This document shows positions 23,114 to 55,145 of a DNA stretch of 64,000 nt, in pieces (positions within the stretch are counted from its first letter, which is position 1; each line of letters opens with the position of its first letter). Location of the stretch: contig NZ_CP015136.1 in the NCBI RefSeq assembly GCF_001618865.1, positions 5,801,001-5,865,000 of the forward strand. The letters run 5' to 3'. A model generated the notes under the pieces. The model ran no database searches. It was not told the DNA's origin and worked only from the letters and a program-made list of their open reading frames with translations. Origin of the DNA: Luteitalea pratensis (GTDB lineage: Bacteria; Acidobacteriota; Vicinamibacteria; Vicinamibacterales; Vicinamibacteraceae). The position numbers and the translations under genes are program-made.

Positions 23114-23187
23114 GATAGCGCCGGGCTGTCCCCAGCCCGGCGTCCCGCGAGGTGCCGGTTCGGCCGGCTGGAACAGCCGGCCGCTAC
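23114..23187. repeat. Composite palindromic element overlapping the ispE stop
   Basis: Hairpin CGCCGGGCTG/CAGCCCGGCG (preceded by GATAG) and hairpin GGCCGGCTG/CAGCCGGCC (followed by GCTACC) lie 13 bases apart. The ispE stop TAG at 23184-23186 is supplied by the CTACC flank. Layout is as in the GGTAGG...CCTACC pairs, with different stems. Confidence 0.75.
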
Positions 23188-24155
23188 CTTACAGCTGTGG
23201 CGGACTGGTACTCGGACCGGGACAGAAGGCGCGTGTGCCACACCCGGGTGCCGTCAGGCCAGCCGGATGCCAGGGCCGCGAGGTTGGCCGCTGGCTCGAA
23301 CAGTCCGAAGCACGCCGAACCACTGCCGGACATGCCGGCATGGGCGGCGCCCGCGCCGCGTAGCCGATCGACGATGGCGCTGATCTCTGGATGCCGTGCC
23401 GACACCGGTCCTTCCAGGTCATTCCCGAAGCTCGACGTTCGGCCTTCGGCGTTCGGCCTTCGGCCTTCAACCTTCAGCGTTCGGCGTTCGGCGTTCAGCG
23501 TTCGGCGTTCGGCGTTCAGCGTTTCATCAAACCAGCCGTACGCCTGCGAAGTCGACACGCCGAACGGCGGGCGCACGAGCAGCACGGAGGCCCCTGGGAC
23601 ATCAGGCAACGGCGTCAGCAGATCACCCACACCCTCGCCCCGCATCGTCCCGCCCCACGCGAAGAAGGCGACGTCGGCGCCGAGCGGACCGATGACTTCG
23701 GCAAGTTCCGCGGCGTCGAGCGACCGACCTGCCGCGCTGGCGATCAGCCGCGCCGCGGCGGCCGCGTCGGCGCTTCCGCCACCCAGCCCCGCCGCGGCAG
23801 GCACGTGTTTTTCGAGCGCCAGTTCCCAGCCGTCGAGGGGAACGCCGAGGTGAGCCGCCATCGCCGCCGCGCCCTGCCATGCGAGATTGCGCGCGTCGGC
23901 CGGCACTCCGGCGGTGTCGCATGCCATGCCGAACGGACCGGGGCGCGCCCGCAGCGTCAGGGTGTCGGCAAGCGCGATGGACTGCAGCACCGTCGTGAGC
24001 AGGTGGTAACCGTCGGGACGCAGGCCACGCATGCGCAGGTCGAGGTTGACCTTGGCAGGTGCGTGCGTGACCCACAACGGTTGGGCCGGCTCGCCCTTGC
24101 GTGCCGAAGCCCTGGCGGAAGCGGCGAGCCCGGACGATTCTTGCCAATGGGCCAC
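23184..24155 (-). CDS. ispE: 4-diphosphocytidyl-2-C-methyl-D-erythritol kinase with three repeat insertions
   Basis: IspE phosphorylates CDP-ME in the MEP isoprenoid pathway (GHMP kinase fold). The 323-residue product has APAKVNLDLRMRGLRPDGYH, the ATP loop PAAAGLGGGSADAAAAARL and the C-terminal GMSGSGSACFGLF. Three parts look repeat-derived: residues about 9-23 come from a palindrome; residues about 210-240 are a heptad array translated as repeated NAERRTL; the last codons and stop lie in another palindrome. All keep the frame, and the core motifs are intact. Start GTG 24155 follows the lolB-like stop by one base. Confidence 0.93.
   Translation of the reverse strand: MAHWQESSGLAASARASARKGEPAQPLWVTHAPAKVNLDLRMRGLRPDGYHLLTTVLQSIALADTLTLRARPGPFGMACDTAGVPADARNLAWQGAAAMAAHLGVPLDGWELALEKHVPAAAGLGGGSADAAAAARLIASAAGRSLDAAELAEVIGPLGADVAFFAWGGTMRGEGVGDLLTPLPDVPGASVLLVRPPFGVSTSQAYGWFDETLNAERRTLNAERRTLKVEGRRPNAEGRTSSFGNDLEGPVSARHPEISAIVDRLRGAGAAHAGMSGSGSACFGLFEPAANLAALASGWPDGTRVWHTRLLSRSEYQSATAVR
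23436..23526. repeat. Heptad array (TTCGGCG family) inside ispE
   Basis: Thirteen consecutive 7-base units alternate TTCGGCC, TTCGGCG, TTCAGCG and TTCAACC. Read on the coding strand they give repeated NAERRTL. They sit in the linker before the conserved RHPEI...GMSGSGSA region of IspE. Confidence 0.9.
24088..24130. repeat. Palindromic element (CTTCGGC class) at the IspE N-terminus
   Basis: An 8-bp outer stem GGCTCGCC/GGCGAGCC encloses GTGCCGAAGCCCTGGCGGAAG-like sequence related to the CGCCTTCGCCAAGGCTACGGCG class at 29236 and 42383. It encodes the extra residues before APAKVNLDL. Confidence 0.65.
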
Positions 24156-52901: not shown

Positions 52902-54821
52902 ATGCGTGTCGCCTGGTTCTCGCCGTTGCCGCCCGTCCATTCGGGCATCGCGGCCTACAGCGTGGATGTGCTCGCCGGCTTACGCGAGCGACACCAGCTG
53001 GACCTGTACGTGGATGACCCGGTCTGGCACGCCGCCGGCGGACGCCTGCACGCGGGCGCCGGGCCCGGCATCGCCCCGCAGGCCGGACCCTTCGACCTGC
53101 CTCTCTACCGGGCCTTCGACTTCCCCGTCCAGCAGGATCGCGCGCCGTACGACCTCATCGTCTATCAGCTCGGCAACGCCGCGTGCCACCGCTTCATGTG
53201 GCCGTACCTGCTGCGCTGGCCCGGACTCGTCGTGCTGCACGATGCGGCCCTCCATCACGCCCGGGCACAAGCGCTGCTCGCCGATCGCCGCGCCGACGAC
53301 TATCGCGCCGAGTTCCGTTTCAACCACCCGGGCATCGACCCGCGCGTCGCCGATTTCGTCGTCGCAGGCCTGCAGGGGTCGCCTTACTACCTGTGGCCGA
53401 TGCTGCGCCTCGTCCTGGAGCGGGCCCGCGCCGTGGTGGTGCACAGCGACCCAGTGCGCCAGGCCCTCGCCGAGGAATTCCCGGAAGCGCCTCTCACGAC
53501 GGTATCGATGGGGGTGCCGGACCCTTGGGAGAACGCCGACCGCCGAACGCCGAACGCTGAAGTACCGGGTACCGGGTACCGGGTACCGGGTACCGGGGAA
53601 ATCGCCGACCGTCAAACGCCGGACGCTGACGGCACGCGCGATCTGCCGGGAAGATCACCGACCGTCGAGCAAGCTCGACGGCTACAGCAGGGGAACGCCG
53701 AACGCCGAACGCCGAACGCTGACGCACCGGGTACCGGGTACCGGGTACCGGGTACCGGGGATATCGCCGACCGTCAAACGCCGGACGCTGACGGCACGCG
53801 CGATCTGCCGGGAAGATCACTGACCGTCGAGCAAGCTCGACGGCTACAGCAAGGGAACGCCGAACGCCGAACGCCGAACGCTGAAGCACCGGGCACCGGG
53901 TTCCGGGCACCGGGCACCGGGGAGAACGTCGAACGTGGAACGCTGAACGCTGAAGGGCCGGGAACCGGGAATCGGGCACCGGGAGCCGGGCGTACGTCGT
54001 ACGCCGAGGAGCAGGCGGCGACTCCCCACTTCCGACTCCCGCCCCCCGACGTTGAAGCGAAGGCCGAAGGCCGACTGCCGAAGGCCGACCTGGTTCTGGC
54101 GGCGTTTGGCGTGATCACGCCTGAAAAGCGCATCCTGCCGATTCTTCGGGCACTGGCTGTCATCCGGGACGAGGCGCCGCACGTGCGGCTGAGGCTGGTC
54201 GGCGAGATTGGCGAGCACTATGCCCTGTGGCAGGACGTGGCACGCACCGGGACACGCGACCTGATCGAGGTGACCGGCTACGTGGACGACGAGCAGCTCG
54301 CGGCAGAACTCCGGGGCGCGGATGTGTGCCTCTGCCTGCGCTGGCCCACGGCACGGGAGACGTCGGCCTCCTGGCTGCGCTGCCTGGCGGCCGGCAAGCC
54401 GACCGTCGTGCCCGACCAGCTCAGCATTGTCGATGTCCCGACGATCGACCCGCGCCACTGGCAGTTGAAACACGACCGTTCGGACGCCGCGTCCGTGTTC
54501 CAACCGCCGGACGCGTCCCGCGCCGTCGCGGTATCGGTCGAATTGGCCGACGAAGAAGCGATGATCCGCCAGGCCCTGCGCCGCCTCGTCGCCGACAGCG
54601 ATCTGCGCCGTTCGCTCGGCGAGCGTGCCCGAGCGTGGTGGGAGGCCCACCACACGCTCGCCCGGATGCAGCGGGACTACACGCGTGTGATGGAGTGGGC
54701 CGCGGGTCTCCCGCTCCCCGAGTGGCCGGCCGACGCGCCCCCGCATCTGCACCCGGATCCGGCGGAGAGGGCCCGGCGCATGGCGGCGCCGTTCGGCGTG
54801 GAAGTTGATATTCTTCGGTGA
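52902..54821 (+). CDS. GT4-type glycosyltransferase carrying a large repeat insertion
   Basis: This 639-residue GT-B protein starts MRVAWFSPLPPVHSGIAAYS. The N-terminal Rossmann half runs to about residue 209 (HSDPVRQALAEEF, VSMGVPDPW). The donor-binding half resumes at about 396 with LVLAAFGVITPEKRILPILR, VTGYVDDEQLAAELRGADVC, CLRWPTARETSAS. Between them residues about 210-395 are repeat-coded: NAERRTP, GTGYRVPGTG and a 54-residue unit present twice. Without it the protein would be about 450 residues, the normal size. Sugar and acceptor are unknown. Divergent from nuoA. Confidence 0.85.
   Translation: MRVAWFSPLPPVHSGIAAYSVDVLAGLRERHQLDLYVDDPVWHAAGGRLHAGAGPGIAPQAGPFDLPLYRAFDFPVQQDRAPYDLIVYQLGNAACHRFMWPYLLRWPGLVVLHDAALHHARAQALLADRRADDYRAEFRFNHPGIDPRVADFVVAGLQGSPYYLWPMLRLVLERARAVVVHSDPVRQALAEEFPEAPLTTVSMGVPDPWENADRRTPNAEVPGTGYRVPGTGEIADRQTPDADGTRDLPGRSPTVEQARRLQQGNAERRTPNADAPGTGYRVPGTGDIADRQTPDADGTRDLPGRSLTVEQARRLQQGNAERRTPNAEAPGTGFRAPGTGENVERGTLNAEGPGTGNRAPGAGRTSYAEEQAATPHFRLPPPDVEAKAEGRLPKADLVLAAFGVITPEKRILPILRALAVIRDEAPHVRLRLVGEIGEHYALWQDVARTGTRDLIEVTGYVDDEQLAAELRGADVCLCLRWPTARETSASWLRCLAAGKPTVVPDQLSIVDVPTIDPRHWQLKHDRSDAASVFQPPDASRAVAVSVELADEEAMIRQALRRLVADSDLRRSLGERARAWWEAHHTLARMQRDYTRVMEWAAGLPLPEWPADAPPHLHPDPAERARRMAAPFGVEVDILR
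53529..54090. repeat. In-frame repeat block inside the GT4 gene, with a 162-bp tandem duplication
   Basis: The block mixes GAACGCC heptads, GGTACCG heptads, two copies of palindrome CCGTCGAGC/GCTCGACGG followed by CTACA (53663-53688 and 53825-53850), GGGCACC heptads and a four-unit GAAGGCC module (54059-54090). Two 162-bp units (from 53601 and 53763) are almost identical; 162 is a multiple of 3. The reading frame is open throughout. Confidence 0.9.
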
Positions 54822-54825
54822 AGCA

Positions 54826-54947
54826 ACCGGGTACCGGGTACCGGGTGCCGTAGACCGGGCACCGGGCACCGAAATTGATGCCTGATGCCTCATGCTTGAG
54901 GCTTGAGGCTTGAGGCTTGAGGCTTGAGACTTGAGGCTTGAGACTTG
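54826..54947. repeat. Heptad arrays leading into thiS
   Basis: GGTACCG and GGGCACC units (54826-54872) are followed by at least eight GCTTGAG/ACTTGAG units (about 54893-54947). The last unit supplies the TTG start of thiS. Confidence 0.85.
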
Positions 54948-55145
54948 ACGATTCAACTCAACGGCGAGCGCTATGAAGTCTCGGAATCGCTGACGGTCGA
55001 GGCGCTGCTCGCGCGCCTCGAGATCGACGGCCGCCGAGTCGCCGTCGAATTGAACGAGTTGGTTGTCAAGAAGGCCGCCTACGCCGACACCGTCGTCCGT
55101 GACGGCGATGCCGTCGAAGTCGTCAACTTCGTGGGCGGCGGGTAG
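54945..55145 (+). CDS. thiS: Thiamine biosynthesis sulfur carrier ThiS
   Basis: ThiS is a ubiquitin-fold carrier whose C-terminal thiocarboxylate donates sulfur to the thiazole. The 66-residue product reads TIQLNGERYEVSESLTVEAL near the start and ends VEVVNFVGGG, with the required Gly-Gly. TTG 54945 must be the start: an in-frame TGA lies at 54939-54941 and no ATG or GTG follows early. Both the TTG and the GAGG 8 bases upstream belong to the heptad array. thiG follows after one inserted gene. Confidence 0.93.
   Translation: MTIQLNGERYEVSESLTVEALLARLEIDGRRVAVELNELVVKKAAYADTVVRDGDAVEVVNFVGGG

Follow-up and report, generated by a model that had tools for sequence, protein, structure and literature searches.

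The window, a 64,000-nucleotide stretch covering positions 5801001-5865000 of the 7,480,314-bp single-contig genome of Luteitalea pratensis (G000), contained a GT4-like glycosyltransferase gene of the GT-B type on the plus strand (52902..54821), delimited by its ORF, Pfam domains, the orthologue start and Foldseek matches. The ORF comprised 639 codons plus a stop codon, with no internal stop, and began with the N-terminus MRVAWFSPLPP, conserved among orthologues. Pfam assigned Glyco_trans_1_4 and related GT group 1 domains to it, and Pfam, AlphaFold2 secondary structure and Foldseek together gave two Rossmann-like domains with a C-terminal GT group 1 domain, the layout of GT-B/GT4-like enzymes. 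The PDB structures matched by Foldseek were the GT-B enzymes MshA, GlgM, PimA and BshA; their TM-scores, normalised on query length, were low (0.23-0.44) because the insert described below inflates that length. The NCBIfam search of the glycosyltransferase returned no family above cut-off.

The N-terminal domain (52902..53534, plus strand; residues 1-211, from the orthologue alignment) and the C-terminal GT group 1 domain (54090..54821, plus strand; from Pfam), both mostly confident in AlphaFold2, were separated by an in-frame, repeat-coded linker of 555 bp (53535..54089, plus strand; 185 residues, 212-396), recognised by comparison with orthologue linkers of mostly 16-20 aa, by pLDDT and by GC3. 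The sequence-only reading had placed a repeat-coded block in frame within a glycosyltransferase, at the inter-domain point, and both statements held. GC3 fell from about 0.87 to 0.67 in the insert, where the codon-position pattern looked non-coding.

The insert was composed of heptad arrays (GAACGCC, ACCGGGT/C and GAAGGCC), organised into four 69-bp modules, together with a GTAG-tagged palindrome (REP) present twice. Tandem Repeats Finder located 7-bp arrays at 53562-53597, 53693-53719, 53726-53759, 53855-53881 and 53886-53921, as well as a 162-bp period of 2.6 copies with 92% matches and 0% indels. All modules lay on the plus strand. Module 2 (53693..53761) had the structure (GAACGCN)4, 4 bp, (NACCGGG)5, 2 bp, and modules 1 (53531..53599), 3 (53855..53923) and 4 (53924..53992, degenerate) aligned to it ungapped, with 66/69, 64/69 and 54/69 identical positions, respectively. 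A 93-bp spacer bearing the palindrome followed each of modules 1 and 2, giving two plus-strand 162-bp units of 54 codons (53531..53692 and 53693..53854). The earlier description of these units as an exact duplication was incorrect, as 156/162 positions were identical, with 0 indels, and the longest exact run at 162-bp spacing was 58 bp. No 7-bp indel separated the units, and five of their six substitutions changed a residue, suggesting that length and frame are constrained and the residues much less so. The 3' end of the linker was formed by a GCCGAAGGCCGACT repeat of GAAGGCC heptads (54063..54089, plus strand; Tandem Repeats Finder), and more heptad arrays occupied the noncoding spacer downstream of the gene (54826..54948, plus strand). 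Five heptad composites outside the gene were variable in copy number and spacing, unlike the ungapped 69-bp modules.

The two palindromes reported earlier were real: CCGTCGAGCAAGCTCGACGG was present at 53662 and 53824 and, with up to one mismatch, at a total of 27 sites in the genome. On the minus strand, GTAG directly abutted a hairpin with 9-bp arms, CCGTCGAGC-TT-GCTCGACGG in the first copy (53662..53685), and the second copy had the same orientation (53824..53847). Related REP forms occurred in the genome singly and in pairs. Their distribution was examined in a 1.664-Mb sample consisting of 80 roughly evenly spaced 20-kb stretches and the window, in which gene calls made by a simple codon-based script, started from a GC3 criterion, covered 86% of the DNA. 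Two related forms of the palindrome together had 37 exact occurrences, of which 33 lay outside gene calls, the multi-copy, mostly extragenic distribution of REPs; the four intragenic ones were the two in this glycosyltransferase, one in TrmFO and one in an L050 gene call of uncertain quality. Four matches to Y1_Tnp, candidates for a REP-associated RAYT transposase, were spread over three places in the genome, at one of which the gene was broken, spanning two frames and containing a TAG. At L002 1501-1728, three REP-like palindromes formed a composite with GAACGCC-type heptads alongside, so that the two kinds of repeat may move, or come into being, jointly.

GTAG-tagged REPs have been described as short palindromes, mainly extragenic, of which some lie in frame in genes including that of DnaE2 (Di Nocera et al. 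2013, PMC3733652). The same authors suggested that in-frame REPs encode flexible linkers or loops, drew the parallel with Rickettsia palindromic elements (RPEs) and noted that recB of two Xanthomonas species contains REPs that differ but lie at nearly the same position (PMC3733652). In-gene REP clusters given there code for up to 43-82 residues, whereas the REPs described here were embedded in heptads within an insert of 185 residues. The earlier comparison of this insert with RPEs was a fair analogy as regards mode of action, since RPEs are also dispersed palindromic repeats lying in frame in genes that probably stay functional (PMC3733652). It failed for the element itself: R. conorii RPEs are CGTC-tagged (PMC3733652), whereas the insert consisted mostly of heptads and its palindromes were REPs tagged with GTAG.

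Orthologues without the interruption, as anticipated earlier, do exist, many of them trimmed to about 430-495 residues. Of 60 relatives searched initially, 42 possessed the enzyme, and the 30 loci returned were examined. The linker measured 185 aa in G000 and 62, 55, 34 and 25 aa in the other four genus members, the 34-aa linker belonging to a partial gene in G004 and lacking clear heptads. Outside the genus, it measured 8-31 aa in 24/25 orthologues and 71 aa in the remaining one (L024, the G042 orthologue), where a 15-residue direct repeat represents a different kind of in-frame expansion. In a collection of 84,980 species, 55 loci were obtained and 52 scored, with one alignment failure; of the other 51, two of which belong to the genus, 44 had a linker of 8-23 aa, and only the genus member G003 had a period-7 run of more than 7 bases.

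Within the genus, heptads were present in the linkers of three of the other four members, namely G001 (GGGCTCA), G002 (CCGGCAA, in both orientations) and G003 (GGGCACC), and the longest period-7 runs in the five genes were 29, 22, 13 and 10, with 5 in the partial G004 gene. The G003 unit is a rotation of ACCGGGC and thus common to the G000 insert. The units of G001 and G002 were absent from that insert, the latter being one base off AACCGGG and the former at least two bases off every unit tested. In both G000 and G001, the linker ended in LPKAD. As other genus members carry heptads in this linker, an artefact of a single assembly is unlikely. The five genus genes formed one clade in the glycosyltransferase tree, and as their internal order was not resolved, a single old insertion with turnover and several insertions fit it equally. 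The linker tolerates very different sequences, being occupied by heptads of several families and a REP.

The repeat peptide itself might be selected, for instance as a binding or polysaccharide-contacting tail. Such a role would be consistent with a linker of 25-185 aa in all five genus members, longer than in most outside orthologues, and has a parallel in NeuO, whose activity rises with heptad number (PMC3046976). It is nevertheless highly improbable, as the encoded peptides have, apart from short stretches, little in common from one species to another, the substitutions between the 162-bp units mostly change residues, and insertions also occur in unrelated enzymes (see below).

Both halves of the glycosyltransferase had dN/dS values of 0.07-0.27 against four sister species, with dS near 1, a signature of purifying selection on both domains that is averaged over species divergence, a scale at which a very recent loss of function would be invisible. 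Relative-rate counts against G004 were balanced (27/20, 24/26 and 22/20). The insertion lay in frame, as RPEs do, and the gene carrying it may have stayed functional.

In the AlphaFold2 model, built with 30 sequences, residues 215-394 almost all had a pLDDT below 50, whereas values in the two domains were mostly 85-98, and the insert is accordingly predicted to be disordered. Two short low-confidence helices (255-264 and 309-319) were modelled over REP-coded parts. No in-frame ATG, GTG or TTG was found from 53517 to 54110, the next in-frame start being at residue 404, just past the first strand of domain 2. Expression of two proteins through an internal start was disfavoured because the insert contains no in-frame start codon.

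The possibility that the insert inactivated the enzyme, and that the frame stayed open by chance, was also considered. Two of the six frames of the repeat block were stop-free, so openness alone is weak evidence, and the GC3 and codon-position pattern of the insert, as well as the residue-changing nature of 5/6 substitutions between the 162-bp units, would agree with decay. This explanation is however very unlikely given the dN/dS of the domains, an evolution no faster than that of the G004 orthologue, and in-frame heptads in four of the five genus genes, G000 included. The same pattern moreover recurred in IspE and BirA, for each of which the genome contained a single full-length match.

Heptads were common in the genome as a whole. 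An 864-kb sample including the window contained 85 perfect period-7 arrays with three or more copies, belonging to 31 unit families. This is far beyond chance, as a single first-order Markov simulation gave 0. Runs of 14 or more matching bases numbered 85 for period 7, 12 for period 8 and 5 for period 9, with at most 2 for any other period from 4 to 12. Among 140 perfect arrays in the 1.664-Mb sample, 123 were intergenic, 10 lay at gene edges and 7 in gene interiors. The dominance of period 7, the dispersal and the intergenic bias are those of heptameric SSRs. The seven interior arrays fell in three gene calls, including the doubtful L178, and the interior count is inflated by the four located in the glycosyltransferase because the window was chosen for that gene. 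A similar distribution was observed in 0.8 Mb of G001, where 51 of 54 arrays were intergenic, 2 at gene edges and 1 interior.

At a threshold of 12 matches for period-7 runs in G000, gene interiors contained 15 in 1.20 Mb (12.5 per Mb) and intergenic DNA 196 in 0.23 Mb (850 per Mb), a difference of about 68-fold per base. Codon-shuffled genes yielded 1 such run, compared to the 15 observed in gene interiors. Depletion of heptads from genes is thus strong, although codon use would predict still fewer of them there, and given the rarity of runs in genes a heptad-built linker appears as a tolerated exception. The sequence-only reading had considered the content of the block as filtered for an open frame. 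This could not be upheld on content: all 7 interior arrays were stop-free, but so were 194/266 unit orientations outside gene interiors, and the openness argument is partly circular; it is the depletion of arrays in genes that was found instead.

Of 1042 well-scored gene calls, 9 had a period-7 run of 12 or more matches in their interior, the glycosyltransferase among them. Another of the nine, the doubtful L178, looks like two genes joined via an array and was not counted as an insertion. Four further enzymes were named by NCBIfam above cut-off: IspE, BirA, TrmFO and an error-prone DNA polymerase. The ispE gene, located in the same window on the minus strand (23184..24077), possessed heptads coding for a loop (LNAERRTLNAERRT...) that separates its two GHMP domains, and apart from its only full-length match, the matches of IspE in the genome were repeat stretches. 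In organisms that use the MEP pathway, IspE is as a rule essential. No heptads were present in this loop in the G001, G002 and G004 orthologues, and an IspE orthologue searched for in G003 was not found. In BirA, the same loop contained CGGCCGT-type heptads in G000 and GAAGCGG in G001, and was compact in G002, G003 and G004. TrmFO (L202 6826-8385, minus strand) contained an in-frame GTAG-REP read as RRASSTP near CTGCAGG heptads; CCGGCAA heptads occupied the same loop in G002, and it was compact in G004.

The error-prone DNA polymerase (L188 8826-12503; orthologues at L229-L234) possessed heptad- and 18-bp-repeat-coded linkers. Its period-7 runs were CTGCAGG and GGCGTTA in G000, CTCAGGG and ACCGGGC-type in G004, and TCCCGAC and ACCGGGC-type among others in G001, so that the sister species differed in part in their units while the ACCGGGC-type was common to G001 and G004. 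No heptads were found in the polymerase of G005, and one short run in that of G006; the comparison leaves out G003 (wrong frame) and G002 (best match only 46% identical). A large G001 gene, to which NCBIfam gave no name, carried heptads after an N-terminal hydrophobic segment. Recurrence in G001 concerned 3/5 genes, compared to a base rate of 10/547 genes, a contrast that takes no account of gene length or common ancestry and is only indicative.

A phase-variable contingency locus of the NeuO kind, in which slips of one heptad would frameshift the gene on and off and array length might tune activity, is unlikely. Seven is not a multiple of three, one-unit slips at two of the arrays would lead to a stop at codon 245-305 of 640, and the arrays of the insert reach 5 perfect copies. 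There is also a precedent in the E. coli NeuO, both switched and tuned by heptanucleotides in its coding region (PMC3046976). Against this stand the 162-bp units without a 7-bp indel and the four ungapped modules, in keeping with slips that are slow to occur or are purged, and the position of the arrays in the middle of a conserved enzyme, with similar ones in IspE, BirA and TrmFO, which are unlikely targets of switching. Because 7-bp differences are absent between copies, phase variation is unsupported here, though possible in principle.

The reading that we favour, with a probability of about 80%, is that the glycosyltransferase linker expanded in frame, with short repeats dispersed in the same genome as its material. 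The product is most likely a translated, disordered tether, with selection still acting on both domains. Heptads would be created and amplified by replication slippage and recombination, and REPs would insert among them. Nearly all such events within genes would be removed, and the few survivors would lie in flexible linkers, with a total length that keeps the frame. Since the 7-bp unit shifts the frame, growth is expected in larger blocks, and within this gene it would have taken place through the duplication of multiple-of-three blocks (the 69-bp modules and the 162-bp unit). The resulting insert would probably be translated as a near-neutral tether.

A broader and more tentative proposal is that an active process, still running in the genus, seeds and replaces heptads and REPs in the same few permissive enzyme loops, providing a standing source of species-specific disordered protein whose frame is kept by blocks of three. 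We consider it rather unlikely in this full form, in part because ACCGGGC is common to the G003 linker and the G000 insert, and its type to the polymerase linkers of G001 and G004.

The insert shares features with several known repeat systems. Heptameric SSRs of Xanthomonas and Nostoc are dispersed, mostly intergenic and under-represented in coding regions, and 7-bp arrays are variable between closely related Xanthomonas (PMC4692102). In a Beggiatoaceae genome, 7-bp arrays are likewise dispersed and mostly intergenic, those in ORFs being mainly at protein ends (PMC4679880). The Luteitalea heptads resemble these in distribution, but some lie inside enzymes. With NeuO, the insert shares a heptanucleotide array in coding sequence. 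The poly-psi domain of NeuO is built from one unit in 2 to 93 copies near the 5' end and is phase variable (PMC3046976), unlike the insert, a linker in the middle of the protein in which families with about 4-5 copies each are mixed. As in the aaTRs of Borgs, repeat DNA gave rise to new, here predicted, disordered regions, glycosyltransferases being included among the Borg proteins concerned (PMC9879509). Borg in-ORF repeat units are all divisible by three (PMC9879509), whereas the basic unit here is 7 bp and only the 69- and 162-bp blocks are multiples of three.

As far as the literature was searched, the novelty lies in heptads that are not multiples of three building loops in several conserved enzymes of one genus, mixed with REPs; none of the titles and abstract openings returned dealt with loops encoded by heptads, either in Luteitalea or in housekeeping enzymes. 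Two kinds of repeat that are usually intergenic, heptameric SSRs and REPs, are in this way connected with conserved enzymes becoming larger. Natural comparisons are provided by orthologues with short linkers and by the sister species that have repeats at the same spot, and how repeat DNA that is not a multiple of three becomes protein without destroying the gene can now be tested. The enzymes listed above, IspE included, are candidates for direct peptide detection.

Some heptad arrays overlapped gene 3' ends (L041 1226-1247, L069 13947-13977 and L188 5701-5723). Read in the direction of the gene, their units include TAA, and such arrays may thus supply stop codons.
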